From NCBI RefSeq assembly GCF_010111755.1, contig NC_088959.1:930001-994000 (forward strand): a stretch of 64,000 bases of DNA, given 5' to 3'. Positions 21,740 to 64,000 of the stretch are shown here, piece by piece (position 1 is the first letter of the stretch; each line of letters starts with the position of its first letter). Source of the stretch: Nakaseomyces glabratus (lineage: Eukaryota > Ascomycota > Saccharomycetes > Saccharomycetales > Saccharomycetaceae). The notes under the pieces were generated by a model that saw only the letters and a program-made list of their open reading frames with translations, did not search any database and was not told where the DNA came from. The translations under genes were made by a program, and so were the position numbers.

Positions 21740-21812
21740 TGGACGAGTTGGGAATCGAACCCAAGACCTCTCCCATGCTAAGGGAGCGCGCTACCAACTA
21801 CGCCACACGCCC
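21740..21812 (-). tRNA. tA(AGC)1: tRNA-Ala(AGC), copy 1
   Basis: 73-nt intron-less cloverleaf on the minus strand beginning GGGCGTGTGGCGTAG. The anticodon stem CTCCC/GGGAG closes a TTAGCAT loop, giving anticodon AGC. The B box GGTTCGATTCC and acceptor end CTCGTCCA are present, and CCA is not encoded. A run of nine A on the plus strand just below the gene (T run on the minus strand) is the Pol III terminator. Identical to the copy at 30630-30702. Confidence 0.97.
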
Positions 21813-22048
21813 ATCGATTTTATACAAATATCTGGTGGATCCTGCGTTTATGTGGCATAAGTTCATTTATCACGTGATGCATTTCCTCTATTATTTTGTT
21901 CAAGTACTCTTACTTATAGTGTACCAAATTGTATATCCTGATGCTGAGGTTAAGTATTTCCAAAAGTTGATCGGTATGAAATGGGTATTCTTTACAGTAT
22001 TTTTTCACTGGATCTATTGCATTATATATTTACATTTGCTTAAACTAT

Positions 22049-26737: not shown

Positions 26738-26811
26738 CGACCTCGGTGAGGATTGAACTCACGATCTTGCGATTAACAGTCGCACGCCTTAACCAGCTTG
26801 GCCACGAAGTC
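26738..26811 (-). tRNA. tN(GUU): tRNA-Asn(GTT)
   Basis: 74-nt intron-less cloverleaf on the minus strand beginning GACTTCGTGGCCAAG. The anticodon stem GCGA/TCGC closes a CTGTTAA loop, giving anticodon GTT. The B box GAGTTCAATCC and acceptor end CGAGGTC plus discriminator G are intact. A plus-strand run of eight A directly downstream on the minus strand is the terminator. Confidence 0.97.
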
Positions 26812-30428: not shown

Positions 30429-30629
30429 CAAATAGTATGAATGGGGTGATTCATTGCCTAATGCGGTAATCATCAAAACAAGTTTATCCGACATGGTCTT
30501 GAGAAAGAGAGGAGCACTTGTTGTACGGCGATACTTGTAACCACCCACGGACGTACTGACAGAGTATTCCCCTCCCCCGTACCAAATGGTTAATACTTAG
30601 CATAAAAAGAAGAAAGAATAAAAAATTAC

Positions 30630-30702
30630 TGGACGAGTTGGGAATCGAACCCAAGACCTCTCCCATGCTAAGGGAGCGCGCTACCAACTACGCCACACGC
30701 CC
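30630..30702 (-). tRNA. tA(AGC)2: tRNA-Ala(AGC), copy 2
   Basis: Identical over all 73 nt to the gene at 21740-21812, same strand, 8.9 kb away. The plus-strand sequence just below it, ATAAAAAATTAC, supplies a short minus-strand T run as terminator. The flanks otherwise differ, which argues against a large duplication. Confidence 0.97.
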
Positions 30703-31171
30703 AATTAATCAGTTATTCTTCCAAAGTGCTAACATGCATTATATATTATAGAAAAAGCAGTTGTCACTTTTCTTTTTATTTGTGTATGTGAACATTGAAA
30801 AGATACAAATAGTGCATCTAATACAATCTCTCTAAATAGATTTGACGAACTGCATTGATGGTTTTTTTCTCTGTTCCTTTCTAGTTTATTTCCTTGTTCC
30901 TGCGTTTTCAGCATTGAATGAGAAATTTCATATTGATCAGCCTTCACAAATTGAATATTGAAAACGACACACCAAGAATAAGTCATGATAAGAGGCAGTA
31001 ATGGCACTGACACACAAAATAACAGTAACATGAAATAAGAATAAGGCAATAATAATAAAAAAAGAACATATTAATTTTTTTACTTAATTTTGTTAAATGT
31101 AGACGAACTATAGCTTATTATATAATCCCTATAGGATTATTTTACTTTCATGGGTAGAGAAGAATATTTAG
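30703..31171. other. intergenic, tRNA-Ala to PA14 gene stop
   Basis: 469 bp, AT-rich. It holds the 3' flank of the PA14 wall-protein gene and the 5' side of the tRNA. No gene is recognised. Confidence 0.45.
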
Positions 31172-43242: not shown

Positions 43243-46200
43243 CTAAGCAATAGAAACAACTACTATAATCAAAAGAATAATACACTTTTTGATTCCCAAA
43301 AATGTAATCGATGATGCAGATCCAGTTAAATCATGTGAATCTGATAGCTCTGAAATTAAATTTGATGCTGACGTCGAATTAGACCCACCAGATGCTCTTG
43401 TGTCCGTTGACGACAATGTTACTCTCGTTCTGCTTCTAGATTGGATTGTATTGGTTGGGACACTGGAATAGTTTGGTTTATTATTTGACGATACGTCTGC
43501 AGCACTACCTTCTCTATGAGTATTGGTGTTGCTAGAGACTGGAACTGAGCCTCCATTTACTGTCGAAGGACTTATTCCTTCATTGTCTTTTGAATTTTTA
43601 ATGGCAGAACCACTAGCATGACCATGGACTTCACTATGACTTGAGCCTGTATCGATGGAGCTAATAACAGGCCTTGAAGAAGACAATGGTAAAGATTCAG
43701 CAATTTTTGAGGGAACTAACAGGGTACGGCTATTACTAATCTGGTATTCACTGTTGTGGCTGCCAGTATTTCTCGAAGTAGACTGGGTAGTTTCTTCAGA
43801 TATCGTACCACTACCAACCTCATTACCAACCTCATTAGATTTTACGCTAGTAGGTAAGCTGTGTTCCCTTGACTGTGATATATCTGTCCAAACAGCCTCG
43901 GGCTTTTCAGATATTCCTTCTTTGGTTTGTGATGCTAGATCAGATGATTTTCCTTTGCTACTGGATTGATGACCTTGATTCAATCTTGTTTCACCAGTAC
44001 TTATTTTGCCATCTGAATCAGTAGTAATGAAATAAGAGATATACTCTGTGCCATGAGAACCATCTGTCTCAATTGCAATAGTAGAAACTGTAGGTGGACT
44101 GTGAGTAGTTGTTGTACTTGTAGTTATAACACCACCATATTCATTTGTGGTAGTGTAGTATGACACAACAACATATTCAGTTACTCCTTCAGTAACCTCA
44201 ATTGTACTAGTCACTGGCAAAGGAGGTGTGCCAAATGTAGGGTGCTGTGCTTCCGCATCAATGTAGTCACGCGTAGCATTGAACAGAGTGCTGCTGGTAA
44301 CAATCTCTCCCTTCTCATCAACAGTGATGAAGAACGAGATCCAGTCGCTCTCAACATAGTCCTCACCAGTAGTAGCCGTCACCGTCAAAGGTGGAGCACT
44401 GTACGTCCTGGTGCTGCTCGTGGTGATCAAACCACCAAACTCGTTTGTAGTGGTCCAGAATGACACAACTTCATAATTAGTTCTGTCGTCTTCGGCGTTT
44501 ACTTTATTGGTTACAGGAGAAGGAGCTGGTTTAGCTGAGGTATGTGGGGCAGCTTGTTCATTAGAATATAGTGCTGTACGTGTCTTCCAAATGGAGCTAC
44601 CAGTGCTGATGTTACCATCAGAATCAGTTGTGATATAATATGATATGTAATCAATTTCATGATAACCAATTGTCTCAATTTCAATAGTGGAAATTGCAGG
44701 TGGACTGTGAGTAGTAGTTGTACTTGTAGTTATAACACCACCATATTCATTTGTGGTAGTGTAGTATGACACAACAACATATTCAGTTACTCCTTCAGTA
44801 ACCTCAATTGTACTAGTCACTGGCAAAGGAGGTGTGCCAAATGTAGGGTGCTGTGCTTCCGCATCAATGTAGTCACGCGTAGCATTGAACAGAGTGCTGC
44901 TGGTAACAATCTCTCCCTTCTCATCAACAGTGATGAAGAACGAGATCCAGTCGCTCTCAACATAGTCCTCACCAGTAGTAGCCGTCACCGTCAAAGGTGG
45001 AGCACTGTACGTCCTGGTGCTGCTCGTGGTGATCACACCGCCAAACTCGTTCGTAGTGGTCCAGAATGACAAAACCTCATAGTTCGTCATATTGTTCTCA
45101 AGAACAACTGTGTGAGTCTCCACTGGAGGTGCAGGGCCAAATGAAGTGTGCTGTGCTTCCGCATCAATGTAGTCACGCGTAGCATTGAACAGAGTGCTGC
45201 TGGTAACAATCTCTCCCTTCTCATCAACAGTGATGAAGAACGAGATCCAGTCGCTCTCAACATAGTCCTCACCAGTAGTAGCCGTCACCGTCAAAGGTGG
45301 AGCACTGTACGTCCTGGTGCTGCTCGTGGTGATCACACCGCCAAACTCGTTCGTAGTGGTCCAGAATGACACAACCTCATAGTTCGTCATATTGTTCTCA
45401 AGAACAACTGTGTGCGTCTCCACTGGAGGTGCAGGGCCAAATGAAGTGTGTGGTGCATTCGCATCAATGTAGTCACGCGTAGCATTGAACAGAGTGCTGC
45501 TGGTAACAATCTCTCCCTTCTCATCAACAGTGATGAAGAACGAGATCCAGTCGCTCTCAACATAGTCCTCACCAGTAGTAGCCGTCACCGTCAAAGGTGG
45601 AGCACTGTACGTCCTGGTGCTGCTCGTGGTGATCACACCGCCAAACTCGTTCGTAGTGGTCCAGAATGACACAACCTCATAGTTCGTCATATTGTTCTCA
45701 AGAACAACTGTGTGCGTCTCCACTGGAGGTGCAGGGCCAAATGAAGTGTGTGGTGCATTCGCATCAATGTAGTCACGCGTAGCATTGAACAGAGTGCTGC
45801 TGGTAACAATCTCTCCCTTCTCATCAACAGTGATGAAGAACGAGATCCAGTCGCTCTCAACATAGTCCTCACCAGTAGTAGCCGTCACCGTCAAAGGTGG
45901 AGCACTGTACGTCCTGGTGCTGCTCGTGGTGATCACACCGCCAAACTCGTTCGTAGTGGTCCAGAATGACACAACCTCATAGTTCGTCATATTGTTCTCA
46001 AGAACAACTGTGTGCGTCTCCACTGGAGGTGCAGGGCCAAATGAAGTGTGTGGTGCATTCGCATCAATGTAGTCACGCGTAGCATTGAACAGAGTGCTGC
46101 TGGTAACAATCTCTCCCTTCTCATCAACAGTGATGAAGAACGAGATCCAGTCGCTCTCAACATAGTCCTCACCAGTAGTAGCCGTCACCGTCAAAGGTGG

Positions 46201-49200
46201 AGCACTGTACGTCCTGGTGCTGCTCGTGGTGATCACACCGCCAAACTCGTTCGTAGTGGTCCAGAATGACACAACCTCATAGTTCGTCATATTGTTCTCA
46301 AGAACAACTGTGTGCGTCTCCACTGGAGGTGCAGGGCCAAACGACGTGTGTGGTGCATTCGCATCAATGTAGTCACGCGTAGCATTGAACAGAGTGCTGC
46401 TGGTAACAATCTCTCCCTTCTCATCAACAGTGATGAAGAACGAGATCCAGTCGCTCTCAACATAGTCCTCACCAGTAGTAGCCGTCACCGTCAAAGGTGG
46501 AGCACTGTACGTCCTGGTGCTGCTCGTGGTGATCACACCGCCAAACTCGTTCGTAGTGGTCCAGAATGACACAACCTCATAGTTCGTCATATTGTTCTCA
46601 AGAACAACTGTGTGCGTCTCCACTGGAGGTGCAGGGCCAAATGAAGTGTGCTGTGCTTCCGCATCAATGTAGTCACGCGTAGCATTGAACAGAGTGCTGC
46701 TGGTAACAATCTCTCCCTTCTCATCAACAGTGATGAAGAACGAGATCCAGTCGCTCTCAACATAGTCCTCACCAGTAGTAGCCGTCACCGTCAAAGGTGG
46801 AGCACTGTACGTCCTGGTGCTGCTCGTGGTGATCACACCGCCAAACTCGTTCGTAGTGGTCCAGAATGACACAACCTCATAGTTCGTCATATTGTTCTCA
46901 AGAACAACTGTGTGCGTCTCCACTGGAGGTGCAGGGCCAAATGAAGTGTGCTGTGCTTCCGCATCAATGTAGTCACGCGTAGCATTGAACAGAGTGCTGC
47001 TGGTAACAATCTCTCCCTTCTCATCAACAGTGATGAAGAACGAGATCCAGTCGCTCTCAACATAGTCCTCACCAGTAGTAGCCGTCACCGTCAAAGGTGG
47101 AGCACTGTACGTCCTGGTGCTGCTCGTGGTGATCACACCGCCAAACTCGTTCGTAGTGGTCCAGAATGACACAACCTCATAGTTCGTCATATTGTTCTCA
47201 AGAACAACTGTGTGCGTCTCCACTGGAGGTGCAGGGCCAAATGAAGTGTGTGGTGCATTCGCATCAATGTAGTCACGCGTAGCATTGAACAGAGTGCTGC
47301 TGGTAACAATCTCTCCCTTCTCATCAACAGTGATGAAGAACGAGATCCAGTCGCTCTCAACATAGTCCTCACCAGTAGTAGCCGTCACCGTCAAAGGTGG
47401 AGCACTGTACGTCCTGGTGCTGCTCGTGGTGATCACACCGCCAAACTCGTTCGTAGTGGTCCAGAATGACACAACCTCATAGTTCGTCATATTGTTCTCA
47501 AGAACAACTGTGTGCGTCTCCACTGGAGGTGCAGGGCCAAATGAAGTGTGTGGTGCTTCCGCATCAATGTAGTCACGCGTAGCATTGAACAGAGTGCTGC
47601 TGGTAACAATCTCTCCCTTCTCATCAACAGTGATGAAGAACGAGATCCAGTCGCTCTCAACATAGTCCTCACCAGTAGTAGCCGTCACCGTCAAAGGTGG
47701 AGCACTGTACGTCCTGGTGCTGCTCGTGGTGATCACACCGCCAAACTCGTTCGTAGTGGTCCAGAATGACACAACCTCATAGTTCGTCATATTGTTCTCA
47801 AGAACAACTGTGTGCGTCTCCACTGGAGGTGCAGGGCCAAATGAAGTGTGTGGTGCATTCGCATCAATGTAGTCACGCGTAGCATTGAACAGAGTGCTGC
47901 TGGTAACAATCTCTCCCTTCTCATCAACAGTGATGAAGAACGAGATCCAGTCGCTCTCAACATAGTCCTCACCAGTAGTAGCCGTCACCGTCAAAGGTGG
48001 AGCACTGTACGTCCTGGTGCTGCTCGTGGTGATCACACCGCCAAACTCGTTCGTAGTGGTCCAGAATGACACAACCTCATAGTTCGTCATATTGTTCTCA
48101 AGAACAACTGTGTGCGTCTCCACTGGAGGTGCAGGGCCAAATGAAGTGTGTGGTGCATTCGCATCAATGTAGTCACGCGTAGCATTGAACAGAGTGCTGC
48201 TGGTAACAATCTCTCCCTTCTCATCAACAGTGATGAAGAACGAGATCCAGTCGCTCTCAACATAGTCCTCACCAGTAGTAGCCGTCACCGTCAAAGGTGG
48301 AGCACTGTACGTCCTGGTGCTGCTCGTGGTGATCACACCGCCAAACTCGTTCGTAGTGGTCCAGAATGACACAACCTCATAGTTCGTCATATTGTTCTCA
48401 AGAACAACTGTGTGCGTCTCCACTGGAGGTGCAGGGCCAAATGAAGTGTGTGGTGCTTCCGCATCAATGTAGTCACGCGTAGCATTGAACAGAGTGCTGC
48501 TGGTAACAATCTCTCCCTTCTCATCAACAGTGATGAAGAACGAGATCCAGTCGCTCTCAACATAGTCCTCACCAGTAGTAGCCGTCACCGTCAAAGGTGG
48601 AGCACTGTACGTCCTGGTGCTGCTCGTGGTGATCACACCGCCAAACTCGTTCGTAGTGGTCCAGAATGACACAACCTCATAGTTCGTCATATTGTTCTCA
48701 AGAACAACTGTGTGCGTCTCCACTGGAGGTGCAGGGCCAAATGAAGTGTGCTGTGCTTCCGCATCAATGTAGTCACGCGTAGCATTGAACAGAGTGCTGC
48801 TGGTAACAATCTCTCCCTTCTCATCAACAGTGATGAAGAACGAGATCCAGTCGCTCTCAACATAGTCCTCACCAGTAGTAGCCGTCACCGTCAAAGGTGG
48901 AGCACTGTACGTCCTGGTGCTGCTCGTGGTGATCACACCGCCAAACTCGTTCGTAGTGGTCCAGAATGACACAACCTCATAGTTCGTCATATTGTTCTCA
49001 AGAACAACTGTGTGCGTCTCCACTGGAGGTGCAGGGCCAAATGAAGTGTGCTGTGCTTCCGCATCAATGTAGTCACGCGTAGCATTGAACAGAGTGCTGC
49101 TGGTAACAATCTCTCCCTTCTCATCAACAGTGATGAAGAACGAGATCCAGTCGCTCTCAACATAGTCCTCACCAGTAGTAGCCGTCACCGTCAAAGGTGG

Positions 49201-52200
49201 AGCACTGTACGTCCTGGTGCTGCTCGTGGTGATCACACCGCCAAACTCGTTCGTAGTGGTCCAGAATGACACAACCTCATAGTTCGTCATATTGTTCTCA
49301 AGAACAACTGTGTGCGTCTCCACTGGAGGTGCAGGGCCAAATGAAGTGTGTGGTGCATTCGCATCAATGTAGTCACGCGTAGCATTGAACAGAGTGCTGC
49401 TGGTAACAATCTCTCCCTTCTCATCAACAGTGATGAAGAACGAGATCCAGTCGCTCTCAACATAGTCCTCACCAGTAGTAGCCGTCACCGTCAAAGGTGG
49501 AGCACTGTACGTCCTGGTGCTGCTCGTGGTGATCACACCGCCAAACTCGTTCGTAGTGGTCCAGAATGACACAACCTCATAGTTCGTCATATTGTTCTCA
49601 AGAACAACTGTGTGCGTCTCCACTGGAGGTGCAGGGCCAAATGAAGTGTGTGGTGCTTCCGCATCAATGTAGTCACGCGTAGCATTGAACAGAGTGCTGC
49701 TGGTAACAATCTCTCCCTTCTCATCAACAGTGATGAAGAACGAGATCCAGTCGCTCTCAACATAGTCCTCACCAGTAGTAGCCGTCACCGTCAAAGGTGG
49801 AGCACTGTACGTCCTGGTGCTGCTCGTGGTGATCACACCGCCAAACTCGTTCGTAGTGGTCCAGAATGACACAACCTCATAGTTCGTCATATTGTTCTCA
49901 AGAACAACTGTGTGCGTCTCCACTGGAGGTGCAGGGCCAAATGAAGTGTGTGGTGCATTCGCATCAATGTAGTCACGCGTAGCATTGAACAGAGTGCTGC
50001 TGGTAACAATCTCTCCCTTCTCATCAACAGTGATGAAGAACGAGATCCAGTCGCTCTCAACATAGTCCTCACCAGTAGTAGCCGTCACCGTCAAAGGTGG
50101 AGCACTGTACGTCCTGGTGCTGCTCGTGGTGATCACACCGCCAAACTCGTTCGTAGTGGTCCAGAATGACACAACCTCATAGTTCGTCATATTGTTCTCA
50201 AGAACAACTGTGTGCGTCTCCACTGGAGGTGCAGGGCCAAATGAAGTGTGTGGTGCATTCGCATCAATGTAGTCACGCGTAGCATTGAACAGAGTGCTGC
50301 TGGTAACAATCTCTCCCTTCTCATCAACAGTGATGAAGAACGAGATCCAGTCGCTCTCAACATAGTCCTCACCAGTAGTAGCCGTCACCGTCAAAGGTGG
50401 AGCACTGTACGTCCTGGTGCTGCTCGTGGTGATCACACCGCCAAACTCGTTCGTAGTGGTCCAGAATGACACAACCTCATAGTTCGTCATATTGTTCTCA
50501 AGAACAACTGTGTGCGTCTCCACTGGAGGTGCAGGGCCAAATGAAGTGTGTGGTGCTTCCGCATCAATGTAGTCACGCGTAGCATTGAACAGAGTGCTGC
50601 TGGTAACAATCTCTCCCTTCTCATCAACAGTGATGAAGAACGAGATCCAGTCGCTCTCAACATAGTCCTCACCAGTAGTAGCCGTCACCGTCAAAGGTGG
50701 AGCACTGTACGTCCTGGTGCTGCTCGTGGTGATCACACCGCCAAACTCGTTCGTAGTGGTCCAGAATGACACAACCTCATAGTTCGTCATATTGTTCTCA
50801 AGAACAACTGTGTGCGTCTCCACTGGAGGTGCAGGGCCAAATGAAGTGTGTGGTGCATTCGCATCAATGTAGTCACGCGTAGCATTGAACAGAGTGATGC
50901 TGGTAACAATCTCTCCCTTCTCATCAACAGTGATGAAGAACGAGATCCAGTCGCTCTCAACATAGTCCTCACCAGTAGTAGCCGTCACCGTCAAAGGTGG
51001 AGCACTGTACGTCCTGGTGCTGCTCGTGGTGATCACACCGCCAAACTCGTTCGTAGTGGTCCAGAATGACACAACCTCATAGTTCGTCATATTGTTCTCA
51101 AGAACAACTGTGTGCGTCTCCACTGGAGGTGCAGGGCCAAATGAAGTGTGTGGTGCATTCGCATCAATGTAGTCACGCGTAGCATTGAACAGAGTGCTGC
51201 TGGTAACAATCTCTCCCTTCTCATCAACAGTGATGAAGAACGAGATCCAGTCGCTCTCAACATAGTCCTCACCAGTAGTAGCCGTCACCGTCAAAGGTGG
51301 AGCACTGTACGTCCTGGTGCTGCTCGTGGTGATCACACCGCCAAACTCGTTCGTAGTGGTCCAGAATGACACAACCTCATAGTTCGTCATATTGTTCTCA
51401 AGAACAACTGTGTGCGTCTCCACTGGAGGTGCAGGGCCAAATGAAGTGTGTGGTGCTTCCGCATCAATGTAGTCACGCGTAGCATTGAACAGAGTGATGC
51501 TGGTAACAATCTCTCCCTTCTCATCAACAGTGATGAAGAACGAGATCCAGTCGCTCTCAACATAGTCCTCACCAGTAGTAGCCGTCACCGTCAAAGGTGG
51601 AGCACTGTACGTCCTGGTGCTGCTCGTGGTGATCACACCGCCAAACTCGTTCGTAGTGGTCCAGAATGACACAACCTCATAGTTCGTCATATTGTTCTCA
51701 AGAACAACTGTGTGCGTCTCCACTGGAGGTGCAGGGCCAAATGAAGTGTGTGGTGCATTCGCATCAATGTAGTCACGCGTAGCATTGAACAGAGTGCTGC
51801 TGGTAACAATCTCTCCCTTCTCATCAACAGTGATGAAGAACGAGATCCAGTCGCTCTCAACATAGTCCTCACCAGTAGTAGCCGTCACCGTCAAAGGTGG
51901 AGCACTGTACGTCCTGGTGCTGCTCGTGGTGATCACACCGCCAAACTCGTTCGTAGTGGTCCAGAATGACACAACCTCATAGTTCGTCATATTGTTCTCA
52001 AGAACAACTGTGTGCGTCTCCACTGGAGGTGCAGGGCCAAATGAAGTGTGTGGTGCTTCCGCATCAATGTAGTCACGCGTAGCATTGAACAGAGTGCTGC
52101 TGGTAACAATCTCTCCCTTCTCATCAACAGTGATGAAGAACGAGATCCAGTCGCTCTCAACATAGTCCTCACCAGTAGTAGCCGTCACCGTCAAAGGTGG

Positions 52201-55200: not shown

Positions 55201-58200
55201 AGCACTGTACGTCCTGGTGCTGCTCGTGGTGATCACACCGCCAAACTCGTTCGTAGTGGTCCAGAATGACACAACCTCATAGTTCGTCATATTGTTCTCA
55301 AGAACAACTGTGTGCGTCTCCACTGGAGGTGCAGGGCCAAATGAAGTGTGTGGTGCATTCGCATCAATGTAGTCACGCGTAGCATTGAACAGAGTGCTGC
55401 TGGTAACAATCTCTCCCTTCTCATCAACAGTGATGAAGAACGAGATCCAGTCGCTCTCAACATAGTCCTCACCAGTAGTAGCCGTCACCGTCAAAGGTGG
55501 AGCACTGTACGTCCTGGTGCTGCTCGTGGTGATCACACCGCCAAACTCGTTCGTAGTGGTCCAGAATGACACAACCTCATAGTTCGTCATATTGTTCTCA
55601 AGAACAACTGTGTGCGTCTCCACTGGAGGTGCAGGGCCAAATGAAGTGTGTGGTGCATTCGCATCAATGTAGTCACGCGTAGCATTGAACAGAGTGCTGC
55701 TGGTAACAATCTCTCCCTTCTCATCAACAGTGATGAAGAACGAGATCCAGTCGCTCTCAACATAGTCCTCACCAGTAGTAGCCGTCACCGTCAAAGGTGG
55801 AGCACTGTACGTCCTGGTGCTGCTCGTGGTGATCACACCGCCAAACTCGTTCGTAGTGGTCCAGAATGACACAACCTCATAGTTCGTCATATTGTTCTCA
55901 AGAACAACTGTGTGCGTCTCCACTGGAGGTGCAGGGCCAAATGAAGTGTGTGGTGCTTCCGCATCAATGTAGTCACGCGTAGCATTGAACAGAGTGCTGC
56001 TGGTAACAATCTCTCCCTTCTCATCAACAGTGATGAAGAACGAGATCCAGTCGCTCTCAACATAGTCCTCACCAGTAGTAGCCGTCACCGTCAAAGGTGG
56101 AGCACTGTACGTCCTGGTGCTGCTCGTGGTGATCACACCGCCAAACTCGTTCGTAGTGGTCCAGAATGACACAACCTCATAGTTCGTCATATTGTTCTCA
56201 AGAACAACTGTGTGCGTCTCCACTGGAGGTGCAGGGCCAAATGAAGTGTGTGGTGCATTCGCATCAATGTAGTCACGCGTAGCATTGAACAGAGTGCTGC
56301 TGGTAACAATCTCTCCCTTCTCATCAACAGTGATGAAGAACGAGATCCAGTCGCTCTCAACATAGTCCTCACCAGTAGTAGCCGTCACCGTCAAAGGTGG
56401 AGCACTGTACGTCCTGGTGCTGCTCGTGGTGATCACACCGCCAAACTCGTTCGTAGTGGTCCAGAATGACACAACCTCATAGTTCGTCATATTGTTCTCA
56501 AGAACAACTGTGTGCGTCTCCACTGGAGGTGCAGGGCCAAACGACGTGTGTGGTGCATTCGCATCAATGTAGTCACGCGTAGCATTGAACAGAGTGCTGC
56601 TGGTAACAATCTCTCCCTTCTCATCAACAGTGATGAAGAACGAGATCCAGTCGCTCTCAACATAGTCCTCACCAGTAGTAGCCGTCACCGTCAAAGGTGG
56701 AGCACTGTACGTCCTGGTGCTGCTCGTGGTGATCACACCGCCAAACTCGTTCGTAGTGGTCCAGAATGACACAACCTCATAGTTCGTCATATTGTTCTCA
56801 AGAACAACTGTGTGCGTCTCCACTGGAGGTGCAGGGCCAAACGACGTGTGTGGAGCCTCAGGCAACTTGTAGTCACGCGTAGCATTGAACAGAGTGCTGC
56901 TGGTAACAATCTCTCCCTTCTCATCAACAGTGATGAAGAACGAGATCCAGTCGCTCTCAACATAGTCCTCACCAGTAGTAGCCGTCACCGTCAAAGGTGG
57001 AGCACTGTACGTCCTGGTGCTGCTCGTGGTGATCACACCGCCAAACTCGTTCGTAGTGGTCCAGAATGACACAACCTCATAGTTCGTCATATTGTTCTCA
57101 AGAACAACTGTGTGCGTCTCCACTGGAGGTGCAGGGCCAAATGAAGTGTGCTGTGCTTCCGCATCAATGTAGTCACGCGTAGCATTGAACAGAGTGCTGC
57201 TGGTAACAATCTCTCCCTTCTCATCAACAGTGATGAAGAACGAGATCCAGTCGCTCTCAACATAGTCCTCACCAGTAGTAGCCGTCACCGTCAAAGGTGG
57301 AGCACTGTACGTCCTGGTGCTGCTCGTGGTGATCACACCGCCAAACTCGTTCGTAGTGGTCCAGAATGACACAACCTCATAGTTCGTCATATTGTTCTCA
57401 AGAACAACTGTGTGCGTCTCCACTGGAGGTGCAGGGCCAAACGACGTGTGTGGAGCCTCAGGCAACTTGTAGTCACGCGTAGCATTGAACAGAGTGCTGC
57501 TGGTAACAATCTCTCCCTTCTCATCAACAGTGATGAAGAACGAGATCCAGTCGCTCTCAACATAGTCCTCACCAGTAGTAGCCGTCACCGTCAAAGGTGG
57601 AGCACTGTACGTCCTGGTGCTGCTCGTGGTGATCACACCGCCAAACTCGTTCGTAGTGGTCCAGAATGACACAACCTCATAGTTCGTCATATTGTTCTCA
57701 AGAACAACTGTGTGCGTCTCCACTGGAGGTGCAGGGCCAAACGACGTGTGTGGAGCCTCAGGCAACTTGTAGTCACGCGTAGCATTGAACAGAGTGCTGC
57801 TGGTAACAATCTCTCCCTTCTCATCAACAGTGATGAAGAACGAGATCCAGTCGCTCTCAACATAGTCCTCACCAGTAGTAGCCGTCACCGTCAAAGGTGG
57901 AGCACTGTACGTCCTGGTGCTGCTCGTGGTGATCACACCGCCAAACTCGTTCGTAGTGGTCCAGAATGACACAACCTCATAGTTCGTCATATTGTTCTCA
58001 AGAACAACTGTGTGCGTCTCCACTGGAGGTGCAGGGCCAAACGACGTGTGTGGAGCCTCAGGCAACTTGTAGTCACGCGTAGCATTGAACAGAGTGCTGC
58101 TGGTAACAATCTCTCCCTTCTCATCAACAGTGATGAAGAACGAGATCCAGTCGCTCTCAACATAGTCCTCACCAGTAGTAGCCGTCACCGTCAAAGGTGG

Positions 58201-61200
58201 AGCACTGTACGTCCTGGTGCTGCTCGTGGTGATCACACCGCCAAACTCGTTCGTAGTGGTCCAGAATGACACAACCTCATAGTTCGTCATATTGTTCTCA
58301 AGAACAACTGTGTGCGTCTCCACTGGAGGTGCAGGGCCAAACGACGTGTGTGGAGCCTCAGGCAACTTGTAGTCACGCGTAGCATTGAACAGAGTGCTGC
58401 TGGTAACAATCTCTCCCTTCTCATCAACAGTGATGAAGAACGAGATCCAGTCGCTCTCAACATAGTCCTCACCAGTAGTAGCCGTCACCGTCAAAGGTGG
58501 AGCACTGTACGTCCTGGTGCTGCTCGTGGTGATCACACCGCCAAACTCGTTCGTAGTGGTCCAGAATGACACAACCTCATAGTTCGTCATATTGTTCTCA
58601 AGAACAACTGTGTGCGTCTCCACTGGAGGTGCAGGGCCAAACGACGTGTGTGGAGCCTCAGGCAACTTGTAGTCACGCGTAGCATTGAACAGAGTGCTGC
58701 TGGTAACAATCTCTCCCTTCTCATCAACAGTGATGAAGAACGAGATCCAGTCGCTCTCAACATAGTCCTCACCAGTAGTAGCCGTCACCGTCAAAGGTGG
58801 AGCACTGTACGTCCTGGTGCTGCTCGTGGTGATCACACCGCCAAACTCGTTCGTAGTGGTCCAGAATGACACAACCTCATAGTTCGTCATATTGTTCTCA
58901 AGAACAACTGTGTGCGTCTCCACTGGAGGTGCAGGGCCAAACGACGTGTGTGGAGCCTCAGGCAACTTGTAGTCACGCGTAGCATTGAACAGAGTGCTGC
59001 TGGTAACAATCTCTCCCTTCTCATCAACAGTGATGAAGAACGAGATCCAGTCGCTCTCAACATAGTCCTCACCAGTAGTAGCCGTCACCGTCAAAGGTGG
59101 AGCACTGTACGTCCTGGTGCTGCTCGTGGTGATCACACCGCCAAACTCGTTCGTAGTGGTCCAGAATGACACAACCTCATAGTTCGTCATATTGTTCTCA
59201 AGAACAACTGTGTGCGTCTCCACTGGAGGTGCAGGGCCAAACGACGTGTGTGGAGCCTCAGGCAACTTGTAGTCACGCGTAGCATTGAACAGAGTGCTGC
59301 TGGTAACAATCTCTCCCTTCTCATCAACAGTGATGAAGAACGAGATCCAGTCGCTCTCAACATAGTCCTCACCAGTAGTAGCCGTCACCGTCAAAGGTGG
59401 AGCACTGTACGTCCTGGTGCTGCTCGTGGTGATCACACCGCCAAACTCGTTCGTAGTGGTCCAGAATGACACAACCTCATAGTTCGTCATATTGTTCTCA
59501 AGAACAACTGTGTGCGTCTCCACTGGAGGTGCAGGGCCAAACGACGTGTGTGGGGCCTCAGGCAACTTGTAGTCACGCGTAGCATTGAACAGAGTGCTGC
59601 TGGTAACAATCTCTCCCTTCTCATCAACAGTGATGAAGAACGAGATCCAGTCGCTCTCAACATAGTCCTCACCAGTAGTAGCCGTCACCGTCAAAGGTGG
59701 AGCACTGTACGTCCTGGTGCTGCTCGTGGTGATCACACCGCCAAACTCGTTCGTAGTGGTCCAGAATGACACAACCTCATAGTTCGTCATATTGTTCTCA
59801 AGAACAACTGTGTGCGTCTCCACTGGAGGTGCAGGGCCAAACGACGTGTGTGGAGCCTCAGGCAACTTGTAGTCACGCGTAGCATTGAACAGAGTGCTGC
59901 TGGTAACAATCTCTCCCTTCTCATCAACAGTGATGAAGAACGAGATCCAGTCGCTCTCAACATAGTCCTCACCAGTAGTAGCCGTCACCGTCAAAGGTGG
60001 AGCACTGTACGTCCTGGTGCTGCTCGTGGTGATCACACCGCCAAACTCGTTCGTAGTGGTCCAGAATGACACAACCTCATAGTTCGTCATATTGTTCTCA
60101 AGAACAACTGTGTGCGTCTCCACTGGAGGTGCAGGGCCAAACGACGTGTGTGGAGCCTCAGGCAACTTGTAGTCACGCGTAGCATTGAACAGAGTGCTGC
60201 TGGTAACAATCTCTCCCTTCTCATCAACAGTGATGAAGAACGAGATCCAGTCGCTCTCAACATAGTCCTCACCAGTAGTAGCCGTCACCGTCAAAGGTGG
60301 AGCACTGTACGTCCTGGTGCTGCTCGTGGTGATCACACCGCCAAACTCGTTCGTAGTGGTCCAGAATGACACAACCTCATAGTTCGTCATATTGTTCTCA
60401 AGAACAACTGTGTGCGTCTCCACTGGAGGTGCAGGGCCAAACGACGTGTGTGGGGCCTCAGGCAACTTGTAGTCACGCGTAGCATTGAACAGAGTGCTGC
60501 TGGTAACAATCTCTCCCTTCTCATCAACAGTGATGAAGAACGAGATCCAGTCGCTCTCAACATAGTCCTCACCAGTAGTAGCCGTCACCGTCAAAGGTGG
60601 AGCACTGTACGTCCTGGTGCTGCTCGTGGTGATCACACCGCCAAACTCGTTCGTAGTGGTCCAGAATGACACAACCTCATAGTTCGTCATATTGTTCTCA
60701 AGAACAACTGTGTGCGTCTCCACTGGAGGTGCAGGGCCAAACGACGTGTGTGGAGCCTCAGGCAACTTGTAGTCACGCGTAGCATTGAACAGAGTGCTGC
60801 TGGTAACAATCTCTCCCTTCTCATCAACAGTGATGAAGAACGAGATCCAGTCGCTCTCAACATAGTCCTCACCAGTAGTAGCCGTCACCGTCAAAGGTGG
60901 AGCACTGTACGTCCTGGTGCTGCTCGTGGTGATCACACCGCCAAACTCGTTCGTAGTGGTCCAGAATGACACAACCTCATAGTTCGTCATATTGTTCTCA
61001 AGAACAACTGTGTGCGTCTCCACTGGAGGTGCAGGGCCAAACGACGTGTGTGGAGCCTCAGGCAACTTGTAGTCACGCGTAGCATTGAACAGAGTGCTGC
61101 TGGTAACAATCTCTCCCTTCTCATCAACAGTGATGAAGAACGAGATCCAGTCGCTCTCAACATAGTCCTCACCAGTAGTAGCCGTCACCGTCAAAGGTGG

Positions 61201-64000
61201 AGCACTGTACGTCCTGGTGCTGCTCGTGGTGATCACACCGCCAAACTCGTTCGTAGTGGTCCAGAATGACACAACCTCATAGTTCGTCATATTGTTCTCA
61301 AGAACAACTGTGTGCGTCTCCACTGGAGGTGCAGGGCCAAACGACGTGTGTGGGGCCTCAGGCAACTTGTAGTCACGCGTAGCATTGAACAGAGTGCTGC
61401 TGGTAACAATCTCTCCCTTCTCATCAACAGTGATGAAGAACGAGATCCAGTCGCTCTCAACATAGTCCTCACCAGTAGTAGCCGTCACCGTCAAAGGTGG
61501 AGCACTGTACGTCCTGGTGCTGCTCGTGGTGATCACACCGCCAAACTCGTTCGTAGTGGTCCAGAATGACACAACCTCATAGTTCGTCATATTGTTCTCA
61601 AGAACAACTGTGTGCGTCTCCACTGGAGGTGCAGGGCCAAACGACGTGTGTGGAGCCTCAGGCAACTTGTAGTCACGCGTAGCATTGAACAGAGTGCTGC
61701 TGGTAACAATCTCTCCCTTCTCATCAACAGTGATGAAGAACGAGATCCAGTCGCTCTCAACATAGTCCTCACCAGTAGTAGCCGTCACCGTCAAAGGTGG
61801 AGCACTGTACGTCCTGGTGCTGCTCGTGGTGATCACACCGCCAAACTCGTTCGTAGTGGTCCAGAATGACACAACCTCATAGTTCGTCATATTGTTCTCA
61901 AGAACAACTGTGTGCGTCTCCACTGGAGGTGCAGGGCCAAACGACGTGTGTGGGGCCTCAGGCAACTTGTAGTCACGCGTAGCATTGAACAGAGTGCTGC
62001 TGGTAACAATCTCTCCCTTCTCATCAACAGTGATGAAGAACGAGATCCAGTCGCTCTCAACATAGTCCTCACCAGTAGTAGCCGTCACCGTCAAAGGTGG
62101 AGCACTGTACGTCCTGGTGCTGCTCGTGGTGATCACACCGCCAAACTCGTTCGTAGTGGTCCAGAATGACACAACCTCATAGTTCGTCATATTGTTCTCA
62201 AGAACAACTGTGTGCGTCTCCACTGGAGGTGCAGGGCCAAACGACGTGTGTGGAGCCTCAGGCAACTTGTAGTCACGCGTAGCATTGAACAGAGTGCTGC
62301 TGGTAACAATCTCTCCCTTCTCATCAACAGTGATGAAGAACGAGATCCAGTCGCTCTCAACATAGTCCTCACCAGTAGTAGCCGTCACCGTCAAAGGTGG
62401 AGCACTGTACGTCCTGGTGCTGCTCGTGGTGATCACACCGCCAAACTCGTTCGTAGTGGTCCAGAATGACACAACCTCATAGTTCGTCATATTGTTCTCA
62501 AGAACAACTGTGTGCGTCTCCACTGGAGGTGCAGGGCCAAACGACGTGTGTGGAGCCTCAGGCAACTTGTAGTCACGCGTAGCATTGAACAGAGTGCTGC
62601 TGGTAACAATCTCTCCCTTCTCATCAACAGTGATGAAGAACGAGATCCAGTCGCTCTCAACATAGTCCTCACCAGTAGTAGCCGTCACCGTCAAAGGTGG
62701 AGCACTGTACGTCCTGGTGCTGCTCGTGGTGATCACACCGCCAAACTCGTTCGTAGTGGTCCAGAATGACACAACCTCATAGTTCGTCATATTGTTCTCA
62801 AGAACAACTGTGTGCGTCTCCACTGGAGGTGCAGGGCCAAACGACGTGTGTGGAGCCTCAGGCAACTTGTAGTCACGCGTAGCATTGAACAGAGTGCTGC
62901 TGGTAACAATCTCTCCCTTCTCATCAACAGTGATGAAGAACGAGATCCAGTCGCTCTCAACATAGTCCTCACCAGTAGTAGCCGTCACCGTCAAAGGTGG
63001 AGCACTGTACGTCCTGGTGCTGCTCGTGGTGATCACACCGCCAAACTCGTTCGTAGTGGTCCAGAATGACACAACCTCATAGTTCGTCATATTGTTCTCA
63101 AGAACAACTGTGTGCGTCTCCACTGGAGGTGCAGGGCCAAACGACGTGTGTGGAGCCTCAGGCAACTTGTAGTCACGCGTAGCATTGAACAGAGTGCTGC
63201 TGGTAACAATCTCTCCCTTCTCATCAACAGTGATGAAGAACGAGATCCAGTCGCTCTCAACATAGTCCTCACCAGTAGTAGCCGTCACAGTTAAAGGTGG
63301 TGGACTATATTTGGTGGTAGTACTTGTTGTAATAATTTTACCGTTTGCATCTAGTGTTGTGTAGTATGATATCACATCATATTCAGTGACCTCATTGCCA
63401 AGATCAATTATTTTGGTTTCAGGGCTTGGTGCGGGATCATAACTGGTAGATGCAGAAATTATGACGCTATCAGTAATTATTTGACCTTCTCCATTGACAG
63501 TAATAAAGTATGAATAAACGTCAACTACATGTTCATGGTTCTCATATATCGTGATAGTAGTGACTGGAGGAGGACTGTATTTGTCTACATGACTTGTAGT
63601 AATCAATTTACCATTTGCATCTAGAGTGGTATAATAAGATATCACGTCATACTCGGTCACCTGATTTCCCAAATCAATGATTTGTGTAGTTGGAGGAGGA
63701 GCCGGAAAATGCGAAATTGAGAGAGTCTTTGTCGTTGTCGCATACGTTGGCTTTCCGTCGGCAGCCACTGTTGGGACATATGAGATCTCCTCGATGATCT
63801 GCTCATAGTCGGAAGTGAATGTCGTCGTAAAAGCGGGGGGTAAACTTACACTCACAGATATTGTTCTTGTCTTTGTACCTGTAACTGGATGACCGTTTGC
63901 ATCTACTGTGCTGAAAAATGATAATTCGTCTTCTTCCACCCATCCTTGTTGAGTTATTGTCACAGTTTTCGGTGGAGGTATTATCAAGACCGTTCTAGTC
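43243..64000 (-). CDS. giant SFFIT-megasatellite GPI wall protein, 5' end outside window
   Basis: At least 6,918 codons, stop TAG at 43243-43245. The frame is open to the window edge: codons above 63987 read T-R-T-V, and the first nominal start there is TTG, so the real start and any signal peptide or ligand domain lie beyond. Visible order, N to C: diverged repeats of the TEYDVISYYTTLDANGK type (~63290-64000); the near-perfect 100-residue SFFIT array (44849-63288); two more diverged compound units (44000-44848); a Ser/Thr/Asn-rich stalk (43290-43980); and a hydrophobic C-terminus (CIILLIIVVVSIA) typical of GPI signals. Known: SFFIT megasatellites occur in C. glabrata wall proteins. An adhesin role is inferred; there is no evidence of a frameshift. 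Confidence 0.93.
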   Translation of the reverse strand, partial: TRTVLIIPPPKTVTITQQGWVEEDELSFFSTVDANGHPVTGTKTRTISVSVSLPPAFTTTFTSDYEQIIEEISYVPTVAADGKPTYATTTKTLSISHFPAPPPTTQIIDLGNQVTEYDVISYYTTLDANGKLITTSHVDKYSPPPVTTITIYENHEHVVDVYSYFITVNGEGQIITDSVIISASTSYDPAPSPETKIIDLGNEVTEYDVISYYTTLDANGKIITTSTTTKYSPPPLTVTATTGEDYVESDWISFFITVDEKGEIVTSSTLFNATRDYKLPEAPHTSFGPAPPVETHTVVLENNMTNYEVVSFWTTTNEFGGVITTSSTRTYSAPPLTVTATTGEDYVESDWISFFITVDEKGEIVTSSTLFNATRDYKLPEAPHTSFGPAPPVETHTVVLENNMTNYEVVSFWTTTNEFGGVITTSSTRTYSAPPLTVTATTGEDYVESDWISFFITVDEKGEIVTSSTLFNATRDYKLPEAPHTSFGPAPPVETHTVVLENNMTNYEVVSFWTTTNEFGGVITTSSTRTYSAPPLTVTATTGEDYVESDWISFFITVDEKGEIVTSSTLFNATRDYKLPEAPHTSFGPAPPVETHTVVLENNMTNYEVVSFWTTTNEFGGVITTSSTRTYSAPPLTVTATTGEDYVESDWISFFITVDEKGEIVTSSTLFNATRDYKLPEAPHTSFGPAPPVETHTVVLENNMTNYEVVSFWTTTNEFGGVITTSSTRTYSAPPLTVTATTGEDYVESDWISFFITVDEKGEIVTSSTLFNATRDYKLPEAPHTSFGPAPPVETHTVVLENNMTNYEVVSFWTTTNEFGGVITTSSTRTYSAPPLTVTATTGEDYVESDWISFFITVDEKGEIVTSSTLFNATRDYKLPEAPHTSFGPAPPVETHTVVLENNMTNYEVVSFWTTTNEFGGVITTSSTRTYSAPPLTVTATTGEDYVESDWISFFITVDEKGEIVTSSTLFNATRDYKLPEAPHTSFGPAPPVETHTVVLENNMTNYEVVSFWTTTNEFGGVITTSSTRTYSAPPLTVTATTGEDYVESDWISFFITVDEKGEIVTSSTLFNATRDYKLPEAPHTSFGPAPPVETHTVVLENNMTNYEVVSFWTTTNEFGGVITTSSTRTYSAPPLTVTATTGEDYVESDWISFFITVDEKGEIVTSSTLFNATRDYKLPEAPHTSFGPAPPVETHTVVLENNMTNYEVVSFWTTTNEFGGVITTSSTRTYSAPPLTVTATTGEDYVESDWISFFITVDEKGEIVTSSTLFNATRDYKLPEAPHTSFGPAPPVETHTVVLENNMTNYEVVSFWTTTNEFGGVITTSSTRTYSAPPLTVTATTGEDYVESDWISFFITVDEKGEIVTSSTLFNATRDYKLPEAPHTSFGPAPPVETHTVVLENNMTNYEVVSFWTTTNEFGGVITTSSTRTYSAPPLTVTATTGEDYVESDWISFFITVDEKGEIVTSSTLFNATRDYKLPEAPHTSFGPAPPVETHTVVLENNMTNYEVVSFWTTTNEFGGVITTSSTRTYSAPPLTVTATTGEDYVESDWISFFITVDEKGEIVTSSTLFNATRDYKLPEAPHTSFGPAPPVETHTVVLENNMTNYEVVSFWTTTNEFGGVITTSSTRTYSAPPLTVTATTGEDYVESDWISFFITVDEKGEIVTSSTLFNATRDYKLPEAPHTSFGPAPPVETHTVVLENNMTNYEVVSFWTTTNEFGGVITTSSTRTYSAPPLTVTATTGEDYVESDWISFFITVDEKGEIVTSSTLFNATRDYKLPEAPHTSFGPAPPVETHTVVLENNMTNYEVVSFWTTTNEFGGVITTSSTRTYSAPPLTVTATTGEDYVESDWISFFITVDEKGEIVTSSTLFNATRDYKLPEAPHTSFGPAPPVETHTVVLENNMTNYEVVSFWTTTNEFGGVITTSSTRTYSAPPLTVTATTGEDYVESDWISFFITVDEKGEIVTSSTLFNATRDYKLPEAPHTSFGPAPPVETHTVVLENNMTNYEVVSFWTTTNEFGGVITTSSTRTYSAPPLTVTATTGEDYVESDWISFFITVDEKGEIVTSSTLFNATRDYKLPEAPHTSFGPAPPVETHTVVLENNMTNYEVVSFWTTTNEFGGVITTSSTRTYSAPPLTVTATTGEDYVESDWISFFITVDEKGEIVTSSTLFNATRDYKLPEAPHTSFGPAPPVETHTVVLENNMTNYEVVSFWTTTNEFGGVITTSSTRTYSAPPLTVTATTGEDYVESDWISFFITVDEKGEIVTSSTLFNATRDYIDAEAQHTSFGPAPPVETHTVVLENNMTNYEVVSFWTTTNEFGGVITTSSTRTYSAPPLTVTATTGEDYVESDWISFFITVDEKGEIVTSSTLFNATRDYKLPEAPHTSFGPAPPVETHTVVLENNMTNYEVVSFWTTTNEFGGVITTSSTRTYSAPPLTVTATTGEDYVESDWISFFITVDEKGEIVTSSTLFNATRDYIDANAPHTSFGPAPPVETHTVVLENNMTNYEVVSFWTTTNEFGGVITTSSTRTYSAPPLTVTATTGEDYVESDWISFFITVDEKGEIVTSSTLFNATRDYIDANAPHTSFGPAPPVETHTVVLENNMTNYEVVSFWTTTNEFGGVITTSSTRTYSAPPLTVTATTGEDYVESDWISFFITVDEKGEIVTSSTLFNATRDYIDAEAPHTSFGPAPPVETHTVVLENNMTNYEVVSFWTTTNEFGGVITTSSTRTYSAPPLTVTATTGEDYVESDWISFFITVDEKGEIVTSSTLFNATRDYIDANAPHTSFGPAPPVETHTVVLENNMTNYEVVSFWTTTNEFGGVITTSSTRTYSAPPLTVTATTGEDYVESDWISFFITVDEKGEIVTSSTLFNATRDYIDANAPHTSFGPAPPVETHTVVLENNMTNYEVVSFWTTTNEFGGVITTSSTRTYSAPPLTVTATTGEDYVESDWISFFITVDEKGEIVTSSTLFNATRDYIDAEAPHTSFGPAPPVETHTVVLENNMTNYEVVSFWTTTNEFGGVITTSSTRTYSAPPLTVTATTGEDYVESDWISFFITVDEKGEIVTSSTLFNATRDYIDANAPHTSFGPAPPVETHTVVLENNMTNYEVVSFWTTTNEFGGVITTSSTRTYSAPPLTVTATTGEDYVESDWISFFITVDEKGEIVTSITLFNATRDYIDANAPHTSFGPAPPVETHTVVLENNMTNYEVVSFWTTTNEFGGVITTSSTRTYSAPPLTVTATTGEDYVESDWISFFITVDEKGEIVTSSTLFNATRDYIDAEAPHTSFGPAPPVETHTVVLENNMTNYEVVSFWTTTNEFGGVITTSSTRTYSAPPLTVTATTGEDYVESDWISFFITVDEKGEIVTSSTLFNATRDYIDANAPHTSFGPAPPVETHTVVLENNMTNYEVVSFWTTTNEFGGVITTSSTRTYSAPPLTVTATTGEDYVESDWISFFITVDEKGEIVTSSTLFNATRDYIDANAPHTSFGPAPPVETHTVVLENNMTNYEVVSFWTTTNEFGGVITTSSTRTYSAPPLTVTATTGEDYVESDWISFFITVDEKGEIVTSSTLFNATRDYIDANAPHTSFGPAPPVETHTVVLENNMTNYEVVSFWTTTNEFGGVITTSSTRTYSAPPLTVTATTGEDYVESDWISFFITVDEKGEIVTSSTLFNATRDYIDANAPHTSFGPAPPVETHTVVLENNMTNYEVVSFWTTTNEFGGVITTSSTRTYSAPPLTVTATTGEDYVESDWISFFITVDEKGEIVTSSTLFNATRDYKLPEAPHTSFGPAPPVETHTVVLENNMTNYEVVSFWTTTNEFGGVITTSSTRTYSAPPLTVTATTGEDYVESDWISFFITVDEKGEIVTSSTLFNATRDYIDANAPHTSFGPAPPVETHTVVLENNMTNYEVVSFWTTTNEFGGVITTSSTRTYSAPPLTVTATTGEDYVESDWISFFITVDEKGEIVTSSTLFNATRDYIDAEAPHTSFGPAPPVETHTVVLENNMTNYEVVSFWTTTNEFGGVITTSSTRTYSAPPLTVTATTGEDYVESDWISFFITVDEKGEIVTSSTLFNATRDYIDANAPHTSFGPAPPVETHTVVLENNMTNYEVVSFWTTTNEFGGVITTSSTRTYSAPPLTVTATTGEDYVESDWISFFITVDEKGEIVTSITLFNATRDYIDAEAPHTSFGPAPPVETHTVVLENNMTNYEVVSFWTTTNEFGGVITTSSTRTYSAPPLTVTATTGEDYVESDWISFFITVDEKGEIVTSSTLFNATRDYIDANAPHTSFGPAPPVETHTVVLENNMTNYEVVSFWTTTNEFGGVITTSSTRTYSAPPLTVTATTGEDYVESDWISFFITVDEKGEIVTSITLFNATRDYIDANAPHTSFGPAPPVETHTVVLENNMTNYEVVSFWTTTNEFGGVITTSSTRTYSAPPLTVTATTGEDYVESDWISFFITVDEKGEIVTSSTLFNATRDYIDAEAPHTSFGPAPPVETHTVVLENNMTNYEVVSFWTTTNEFGGVITTSSTRTYSAPPLTVTATTGEDYVESDWISFFITVDEKGEIVTSSTLFNATRDYIDANAPHTSFGPAPPVETHTVVLENNMTNYEVVSFWTTTNEFGGVITTSSTRTYSAPPLTVTATTGEDYVESDWISFFITVDEKGEIVTSSTLFNATRDYIDANAPHTSFGPAPPVETHTVVLENNMTNYEVVSFWTTTNEFGGVITTSSTRTYSAPPLTVTATTGEDYVESDWISFFITVDEKGEIVTSSTLFNATRDYIDAEAPHTSFGPAPPVETHTVVLENNMTNYEVVSFWTTTNEFGGVITTSSTRTYSAPPLTVTATTGEDYVESDWISFFITVDEKGEIVTSSTLFNATRDYIDANAPHTSFGPAPPVETHTVVLENNMTNYEVVSFWTTTNEFGGVITTSSTRTYSAPPLTVTATTGEDYVESDWISFFITVDEKGEIVTSSTLFNATRDYIDAEAQHTSFGPAPPVETHTVVLENNMTNYEVVSFWTTTNEFGGVITTSSTRTYSAPPLTVTATTGEDYVESDWISFFITVDEKGEIVTSSTLFNATRDYIDAEAQHTSFGPAPPVETHTVVLENNMTNYEVVSFWTTTNEFGGVITTSSTRTYSAPPLTVTATTGEDYVESDWISFFITVDEKGEIVTSSTLFNATRDYIDAEAPHTSFGPAPPVETHTVVLENNMTNYEVVSFWTTTNEFGGVITTSSTRTYSAPPLTVTATTGEDYVESDWISFFITVDEKGEIVTSSTLFNATRDYIDANAPHTSFGPAPPVETHTVVLENNMTNYEVVSFWTTTNEFGGVITTSSTRTYSAPPLTVTATTGEDYVESDWISFFITVDEKGEIVTSSTLFNATRDYIDANAPHTSFGPAPPVETHTVVLENNMTNYEVVSFWTTTNEFGGVITTSSTRTYSAPPLTVTATTGEDYVESDWISFFITVDEKGEIVTSSTLFNATRDYIDAEAPHTSFGPAPPVETHTVVLENNMTNYEVVSFWTTTNEFGGVITTSSTRTYSAPPLTVTATTGEDYVESDWISFFITVDEKGEIVTSSTLFNATRDYIDANAPHTSFGPAPPVETHTVVLENNMTNYEVVSFWTTTNEFGGVITTSSTRTYSAPPLTVTATTGEDYVESDWISFFITVDEKGEIVTSSTLFNATRDYIDAEAQHTSFGPAPPVETHTVVLENNMTNYEVVSFWTTTNEFGGVITTSSTRTYSAPPLTVTATTGEDYVESDWISFFITVDEKGEIVTSSTLFNATRDYIDAEAQHTSFGPAPPVETHTVVLENNMTNYEVVSFWTTTNEFGGVITTSSTRTYSAPPLTVTATTGEDYVESDWISFFITVDEKGEIVTSSTLFNATRDYIDANAPHTSFGPAPPVETHTVVLENNMTNYEVVSFWTTTNEFGGVITTSSTRTYSAPPLTVTATTGEDYVESDWISFFITVDEKGEIVTSSTLFNATRDYIDANAPHTSFGPAPPVETHTVVLENNMTNYEVVSFWTTTNEFGGVITTSSTRTYSAPPLTVTATTGEDYVESDWISFFITVDEKGEIVTSSTLFNATRDYIDANAPHTSFGPAPPVETHTVVLENNMTNYEVVSFWTTTNEFGGVITTSSTRTYSAPPLTVTATTGEDYVESDWISFFITVDEKGEIVTSSTLFNATRDYIDANAPHTSFGPAPPVETHTVVLENNMTNYEVVSFWTTTNEFGGVITTSSTRTYSAPPLTVTATTGEDYVESDWISFFITVDEKGEIVTSSTLFNATRDYIDAEAQHTSFGPAPPVETHTVVLENNMTNYEVLSFWTTTNEFGGVITTSSTRTYSAPPLTVTATTGEDYVESDWISFFITVDEKGEIVTSSTLFNATRDYIDAEAQHPTFGTPPLPVTSTIEVTEGVTEYVVVSYYTTTNEYGGVITTSTTTTHSPPAISTIEIETIGYHEIDYISYYITTDSDGNISTGSSIWKTRTALYSNEQAAPHTSAKPAPSPVTNKVNAEDDRTNYEVVSFWTTTNEFGGLITTSSTRTYSAPPLTVTATTGEDYVESDWISFFITVDEKGEIVTSSTLFNATRDYIDAEAQHPTFGTPPLPVTSTIEVTEGVTEYVVVSYYTTTNEYGGVITTSTTTTHSPPTVSTIAIETDGSHGTEYISYFITTDSDGKISTGETRLNQGHQSSSKGKSSDLASQTKEGISEKPEAVWTDISQSREHSLPTSVKSNEVGNEVGSGTISEETTQSTSRNTGSHNSEYQISNSRTLLVPSKIAESLPLSSSRPVISSIDTGSSHSEVHGHASGSAIKNSKDNEGISPSTVNGGSVPVSSNTNTHREGSAADVSSNNKPNYSSVPTNTIQSRSRTRVTLSSTDTRASGGSNSTSASNLISELSDSHDLTGSASSITFLGIKKCIILLIIVVVSIA
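44089..45076 (-). repeat. 606-bp direct duplication at the C-terminal edge of the array
   Basis: Sequence at ~44089-44470 recurs at ~44695-45076, offset by 606 bp (202 codons). Each copy joins part of an SFFIT unit to the VTSTIEVTEGVTEY...NEYGGVITTS unit. The two copies differ in scattered positions around 44470-44690, so this duplication is older than the main array. Confidence 0.85.
44849..63288 (-). repeat. SFFIT megasatellite, 300-bp unit, ~61.5 copies
   Basis: An exact 300-bp period holds without any length change for 18,440 bp. The unit contains ESDWISFFITVDEKGEIVTS and, half a unit later, NYEVVSFWTTTNEFGGVITT. Nearly all variation is in one 18-bp window: plus-strand GGAGCCTCAGGCAACTTG (Lys-Leu-Pro-Glu-Ala type, 22 junctions) versus GGTGCATTCGCATCAATG and close relatives (Ile-Asp-Ala type, 39 junctions). 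No cysteine; two N-glycosylation sequons per unit (NAT, NMT). Confidence 0.97.

Follow-up and report, generated by a model that had tools for sequence, protein, structure and literature searches.

A 7,236-residue predicted wall protein of Nakaseomyces glabratus, probably Pwp1, with 62 contiguous SFFIT megasatellite units

The window, meaning the whole 64,000-nt stretch of DNA that we analysed (C9:930001-994000, from a genome of 12.73 Mb in 13 contigs), carries on its minus strand most of a gene that, judged by its sequence, appears to be PWP1 (CAGL0I10147g, which we take to be the same gene), a cluster II (PA14-containing) adhesin gene that Candida glabrata (Nakaseomyces glabratus) carries on its chromosome I. 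Most of its length is an SFFIT megasatellite. The best explanation of this arrangement, to which we give a probability of roughly 0.6, is that the protein is a GPI-type wall adhesin whose array would serve as a stalk, carrying the PA14 domain outward for sugar-dependent binding.

The list of open reading frames (ORFs) gives a minus-strand frame of 6,918 codons that stays open between 43243 and the window edge, and no ORF of at least 150 aa in any other frame over 43243-64000. As the sequence-only reading had proposed, the frame runs on past the edge: in the adjoining 40 kb that we read, it continues for 953 bp to an ATG at window-equivalent 64953, and an in-frame stop lies upstream of that ATG at 64978. 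A stop or frameshift that might break the gene was sought before the ATG and none was found. The complete product translates as one intact frame of 7,236 aa with a single terminal stop (coding sequence 21.7 kb; ~792 kDa unglycosylated; pI 4.19), and the gene's distance to the contig's right end is ~148 kb. Mdn1 is shorter, at about 4,900 aa. A long open frame is an automatic consequence of a 300-bp unit that contains no stop codon. The parts of the gene are as follows.

43243..44043, minus strand: Ser/Thr-rich tail (aa 6971-7236; 33% Ser+Thr in the translation), hydrophobic GPI-type end and TAG stop
44044..44646, minus strand: post-array stalk (aa 6770-6970), with divergent modules and one SFFIT unit (anchor aa 6872)
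44647..63246, minus strand: SFFIT megasatellite, 62 contiguous 300-bp units (aa 570-6769), from Tandem Repeats Finder and a unit table
44947-63246, minus strand: units 1-61 of the array, near identical; unit 62 is divergent
63247..64000, minus strand: pre-array stalk within the window (aa 319-569), divergent repeat modules with Pfam Hpf1_C matches
64000-64953 in window-equivalent positions (L001:1000-1953), minus strand: remainder of the gene outside the window, with the ATG, a signal-peptide-like N-terminus, the GLEYA/PA14 domain (about aa 94-224) and the start of the stalk

By inspection, the first ~30 residues resemble a signal peptide, and the C-terminus has the typical appearance of a GPI-type end, with hydrophobic last residues; a near-identical C-terminus is present in a homologue from another isolate (P0018). 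Together with the intact frame, these ends, both assigned by eye, uphold the earlier description of a giant GPI-type wall protein, and the signal peptide and ligand domain that were looked for upstream have their counterparts outside the window in the signal-peptide-like start and the PA14/GLEYA domain.

The N-terminal domain matches the Pfam families GLEYA (4.4e-19; 69 bits against a cut-off of 26.2) and PA14 (4.9e-14; 52.8 bits against a cut-off of 24), and its sequence matches in the PDB include chains of Flo5, Flo1, KpFlo2, Cea1 and Epa1; the listing holds 30 chains, and the 10 that belong to PurE we took as chance. For a fold model we used a homologue, P0021, that is 96% identical over residues 1-330. 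Mean pLDDT for its N-terminal model was moderate, at 51 (alignment of 11 sequences), with values of 50-88 in 10-residue blocks between residues 81 and 220. The 28 best Foldseek matches of this model are yeast PA14 adhesin domains, KpFlo2 being the best (1.4e-12), and the matches include Cea1, Flo1, Flo5 and Epa1/6/9. The PWP1-type domain, as modelled for P0021, is therefore predicted to share its fold with the lectin domains of Flo5/Flo1, KpFlo2, Cea1 and Epa1/6/9, at 20-30% identity in the structural alignments. The Asp-Asp pair and Asn of the Flo proteins have a calcium-binding role; in a sequence comparison these residues align with the N-terminal domain, and they are kept in six of eight Pwp homologues, the exceptions being P0029 and P0030 (first Asp replaced by Asn). 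In comparisons of the PA14 domain with three neighbours, dS was saturated and gave no usable dN/dS ratio. The Pwp family is described, in the passages available from one review, as being without a known structure or ligand (PMC8746771).

Several observations point to PWP1 in particular. Over 97% of residues 1-330, the protein is 57% identical to a PWP5-named protein (P0029), as against 20-24% structural-alignment identity to Epa1/6/9; this places it with the Pwp proteins, by identities rather than by a tree, and rules out an Epa assignment. A 2025 study lists the PWP1 substitutions S6604T and N4199K (PMC12028409), and in the protein here residue 6604 is S and residue 4199 is N, in agreement with that numbering, the reference sequence of the study not being stated in the parts available; of 1,201 trial offsets, 18 give agreement at both residues. 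For CAGL0I10147g, a 303-bp insertion at Y3995 was described between two sequential isolates from one patient (PMC5555451). Residue 3995 is a Y in P0002, a homologue from another isolate, where it stands immediately before the linker patch of unit 35; unit 36 of P0002 has a one-residue insertion. As far as the passages available go, these two residue numberings independently support the equation of PWP1 with CAGL0I10147g (PMC12028409; PMC5555451). Nothing separates the gene here from PWP1 among the cluster II Pwp adhesins, since numbering, chromosome I, PA14 domain and GPI-type end all agree. The gene and its size are already known, residues 4199 and 6604 of PWP1 having been numbered in print (PMC12028409).

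Residues 4199 and 6604 fall in array units 37 and 61, at unit positions 30 and 35, in or at the edge of the variable linker described below. Because of this location, read mapping within the repeats may explain the two published substitutions, which come from short reads (PMC12028409).

Tandem Repeats Finder reports the array at 44836-63300 (period 300, 61.5 copies, 99% matches, 0% indels, score 35,017), as the sequence-only reading had it: about 61.5 copies in perfect period. In frame, this corresponds to 62 contiguous 100-codon units, of which 61 are near identical; unit 62 has 97 differences from the consensus in its 300 nt, and this unit and the further SFFIT unit at aa 6872 are excluded from the statistics on 61 units. 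The unit table shows no indel across the 61. Each unit consists of two related modules (none of 2,000 shuffles scores as high), and a relationship of each module to a VSHITT module has weak support (65 and 38 of 2,000 shuffles). Hpf1_C (PF20646) matches three array units at 39.2 bits (cut-off 25). We set aside the other Pfam rows (LpoB, Rhabdo_ncap, Ig_J and others) by judgement as composition matches, including LpoB, which is above the cut-off in both Pfam searches, and Rhabdo_ncap, which is above it in the search that found GLEYA and PA14. Searched against PDB sequences, the units had two matches, with E values of 0.4 and 0.88, taken as chance. Every unit has runs of beta-branched and aromatic residues and two N-glycosylation sequons (123 in the array); two motif-bearing stretches each occur in 60 exact copies; and the array is 28% Ser+Thr and lacks a KR/RR site. 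For three repeat units, AlphaFold2 gave a mean pLDDT of 34 from an alignment of 13 sequences, in which P0009, P0010 and P0014, with visibly broken ends, were kept and P0011-P0013 and P0015-P0017 were left out. At this pLDDT we claim neither a fold nor a stalk length.

SFFIT megasatellites of C. glabrata have in common the 300-bp period, the SFFIT core and a location in adhesin coding sequence. At least 13 others are among the matches listed in this genome, and we compared 12, leaving out the array at C12:1098 kb; nine were sampled by 900 bases each, with two complete units compared in each. Against these 12 arrays the unit backbone has a dN/dS of 0.11-0.28, several of the 12 being near copies of each other and so not independent tests. 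At such a ratio, the SFFIT repeat is kept as protein. Two features exceed what chance would give: a period that holds exactly through 61 units, with no indel, and the low backbone dN/dS. The array had been called exceptional for both length and purity. Its copy number is so within this genome, at about twice that of the next array found: 62 contiguous units, compared with at least 30, 22 and 21 (about) in the next arrays among those listed. Its purity is not unique, since units are nearly alike in 11 of the 12 sister arrays that we sampled; more variation is present in the neighbour at C9:1004 kb, where 6 of 10 units are distinct.

C. glabrata is already known to have giant wall proteins with repeats, and the class has been published. 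Megasatellites were earlier put at up to 32 copies (PMC4556013; PMC6407134). In the same reference strain, Awp14 of cluster III has 8,759 aa, a length obtained after its authors had corrected a frame error, with 114 VSHITT and 4 SFFIT cores (PMC8634165). According to the passages available, Awp14 resembles PWP1 in having a signal peptide, an A-domain, a megasatellite stalk and a GPI end; it is longer (8,759 against 7,236 aa), which rules out PWP1 as the longest such protein, and its array is dominated by VSHITT rather than SFFIT repeats.

Variation within the PWP1 array is concentrated in a short linker. The 61 units fall into 9 nucleotide haplotypes with 17 variable sites, 14 of which are in unit nt 80-105, a 26-bp linker between the modules (the others are at nt 50, 132 and 175); six representative units are identical outside the linker patch. 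Units 1-20, 22 and 36 have a KLPEA linker, and the other 39 have IDANA, IDAEA or IDAEAQ, the last of these at units 21, 48, 49, 55, 56 and 61. Over 33 nt, the KLPEA patch differs by 2-5 nt from 11 of the 12 sister arrays and by 10 from the neighbouring C9:1004 kb array, whereas the IDANA patch has 7 differences from the C9:1004 kb array and 11-14 from the other 11; the IDA type is thus closest to the neighbouring PA14-type gene. Units 43-49 are exactly duplicated as units 50-56. Among 20 lag tests of unit order, a 3-unit period was not significant (p 0.18 and 0.41), and lag 7 over units 23-61 gave an uncorrected p of 0.0054.

Comparison with another isolate, which the sequence-only reading had proposed for copy number, shows that unit order and linker proportions vary. 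The P0002 sequence contains at least 39 units in a different order and breaks off inside the repeats, with no GPI end. Leaving out the cut-off unit 39, it has 38 complete units, of which 36 are identical to its own consensus. KLPEA-type linkers make up 37 of its 39 units (one with an inserted residue), compared with 22 of 61 here, the remaining two being IDA-type, and its sole interior IDAEAQ is unit 4. Residues 1-569 differ from the protein here at only 14 positions, so the array turns over faster than its flank. Two linker types on one backbone suggest recent expansion with short-tract exchange. The simplest reading, we infer, is that the common patch entered the array by a short conversion tract, and that expansion followed. 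We did not meet linker-confined variation with a different spread in two isolates in the literature passages available, which came from searches on other subjects.

Under the explanation that we favour, the protein would be secreted and its C-terminus linked to wall glucan. The array would form an acidic, N-glycosylated, beta-rich stalk that holds the PA14 domain out of the wall, and the domain would bind in a sugar-dependent manner. Array length would change when near-identical units recombine unequally or slip against each other, and linker patches would be exchanged among units in short conversion tracts, probably also with dispersed sister arrays. This spacer model comes from family knowledge and reviews (PMC6023314; PMC8746771), and the proposal that copy number sets projection is a hypothesis of the field, stated in a review (PMC6023314). 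A link of PWP1 to biofilm is indirect: a strain that overproduces biofilm resulted from an insertion located between CAGL0I10147g and CAGL0I10200g (PMC6023314), and Pwp1 and Pwp3 are among the factors implicated in biofilm formation (PMC6407134). The term PWP is absent from the main text of the two wall-proteome papers searched for it, and the literature passages available yielded no Pwp1 expression, proteomic or binding data. The 28% Ser+Thr of the array is modest for a classic O-glycosylated stalk and counts against the stalk reading. Deletion of most of the A-domain of Awp14 slightly lowered chitin binding in one strain and left most assays unaffected (PMC8634165), which counts against a strong role of PWP1.

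A serious rival, to which we give a good deal less weight, is that array length is effectively neutral: recombination would change copy number, and selection would only keep the units readable and harmless. The small number of haplotypes and variable sites in 61 units, indicating very recent homogenisation, fits this idea, as do the differences in unit order and linker proportions between P0002 and the protein here beside the few differences in residues 1-569, the 303-bp indel between sequential isolates (PMC5555451), and the slight phenotype of the Awp14 deletion (PMC8634165). The low backbone dN/dS shows that the repeat is constrained in sequence, but not that it is constrained in number, and the cost of a 21.7-kb coding sequence also stands against neutrality. 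A form of the idea in which length is neutral but the unit is constrained is still to be taken seriously. It is unlikely that recombination, reshuffling only the linker, moves cassettes of ~30 bp between dispersed arrays, with a spread through the array that varies from isolate to isolate, so as to tune stalk flexibility or surface antigenicity adaptively. Somewhat more doubtful still is the possibility that the repeats are themselves the working part, with ~120 hydrophobic beta-strand motifs (ISFFITV and VVSFWTTT) zipping adhesins into clusters or cells to one another, such that length would provide avidity, not reach. The exact copies of each motif-bearing stretch and the beta-branched and aromatic runs would suit a zipper, and cross-beta bonding has been described for Als and Flo adhesins (PMC12389486); however, in the passages available from that paper C. 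glabrata is mentioned solely as the source of an Epa1 query, and the array sequons, if glycosylated, would hinder packing.

That part of the array length is an assembly artefact is very improbable. In its favour, the Xu et al. 2020 assembly, which is likely the one used here, has a reported frame error in the AWP14 repeat region (PMC8634165), earlier surveys found no more than 32 copies of any megasatellite (PMC4556013; PMC6407134), the neighbouring SFFIT gene is broken in frame, and short-read polishing could exaggerate the likeness of the units. Against it, no 3-kb window recurs within the array and at most 7 identical units stand in a row, such that multi-kilobase reads can be anchored; none of the 61 units has an indel; and P0002 is equally homogeneous with at least 39 units. 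The duplication of units 43-49 as 50-56 could be the place where 2.1 kb is most easily gained or lost in assembly.

The surroundings of PWP1 include other adhesin-type genes and three tRNA genes.

Window-equivalent 73646-78412: PA14-type gene (1,588 aa), divergent, beginning ~8.7 kb upstream of PWP1
31172-36586, minus strand: PA14/GLEYA adhesin gene (1,804 aa) with VSHITT-type and 33-bp repeats
21739-21813, minus strand: tRNA Ala(AGC)
26738-26811, minus strand: tRNA Asn(GTT)
30629-30703, minus strand: tRNA Ala(AGC)

The VSHITT-type gene also matches Hpf1_C. A 986-codon frame on the plus strand (32555-35515) runs antisense through its repeat region and is probably a by-product of repeat composition. 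Farther out, a PA14-type SFFIT gene (window-equivalent 82638-92763; L002/L003, C9:1012638-1022763) has its frame broken inside the repeats, where a 2,446-codon ORF overlaps a 956-codon ORF that carries the repeats on in another frame. In several public assemblies of other isolates, the repeat frame of P0010, P0012, P0016 and P0017 is broken right after the DEK codons of an SFFIT module; this shared break looks like a recurrent sequencing or assembly error.

PWP1 provides a clean case for the question of whether megasatellite length in C. glabrata has a function. Its array is in frame, unique at 3 kb and variable between isolates, and its linker variants form a countable map through which turnover can be traced.
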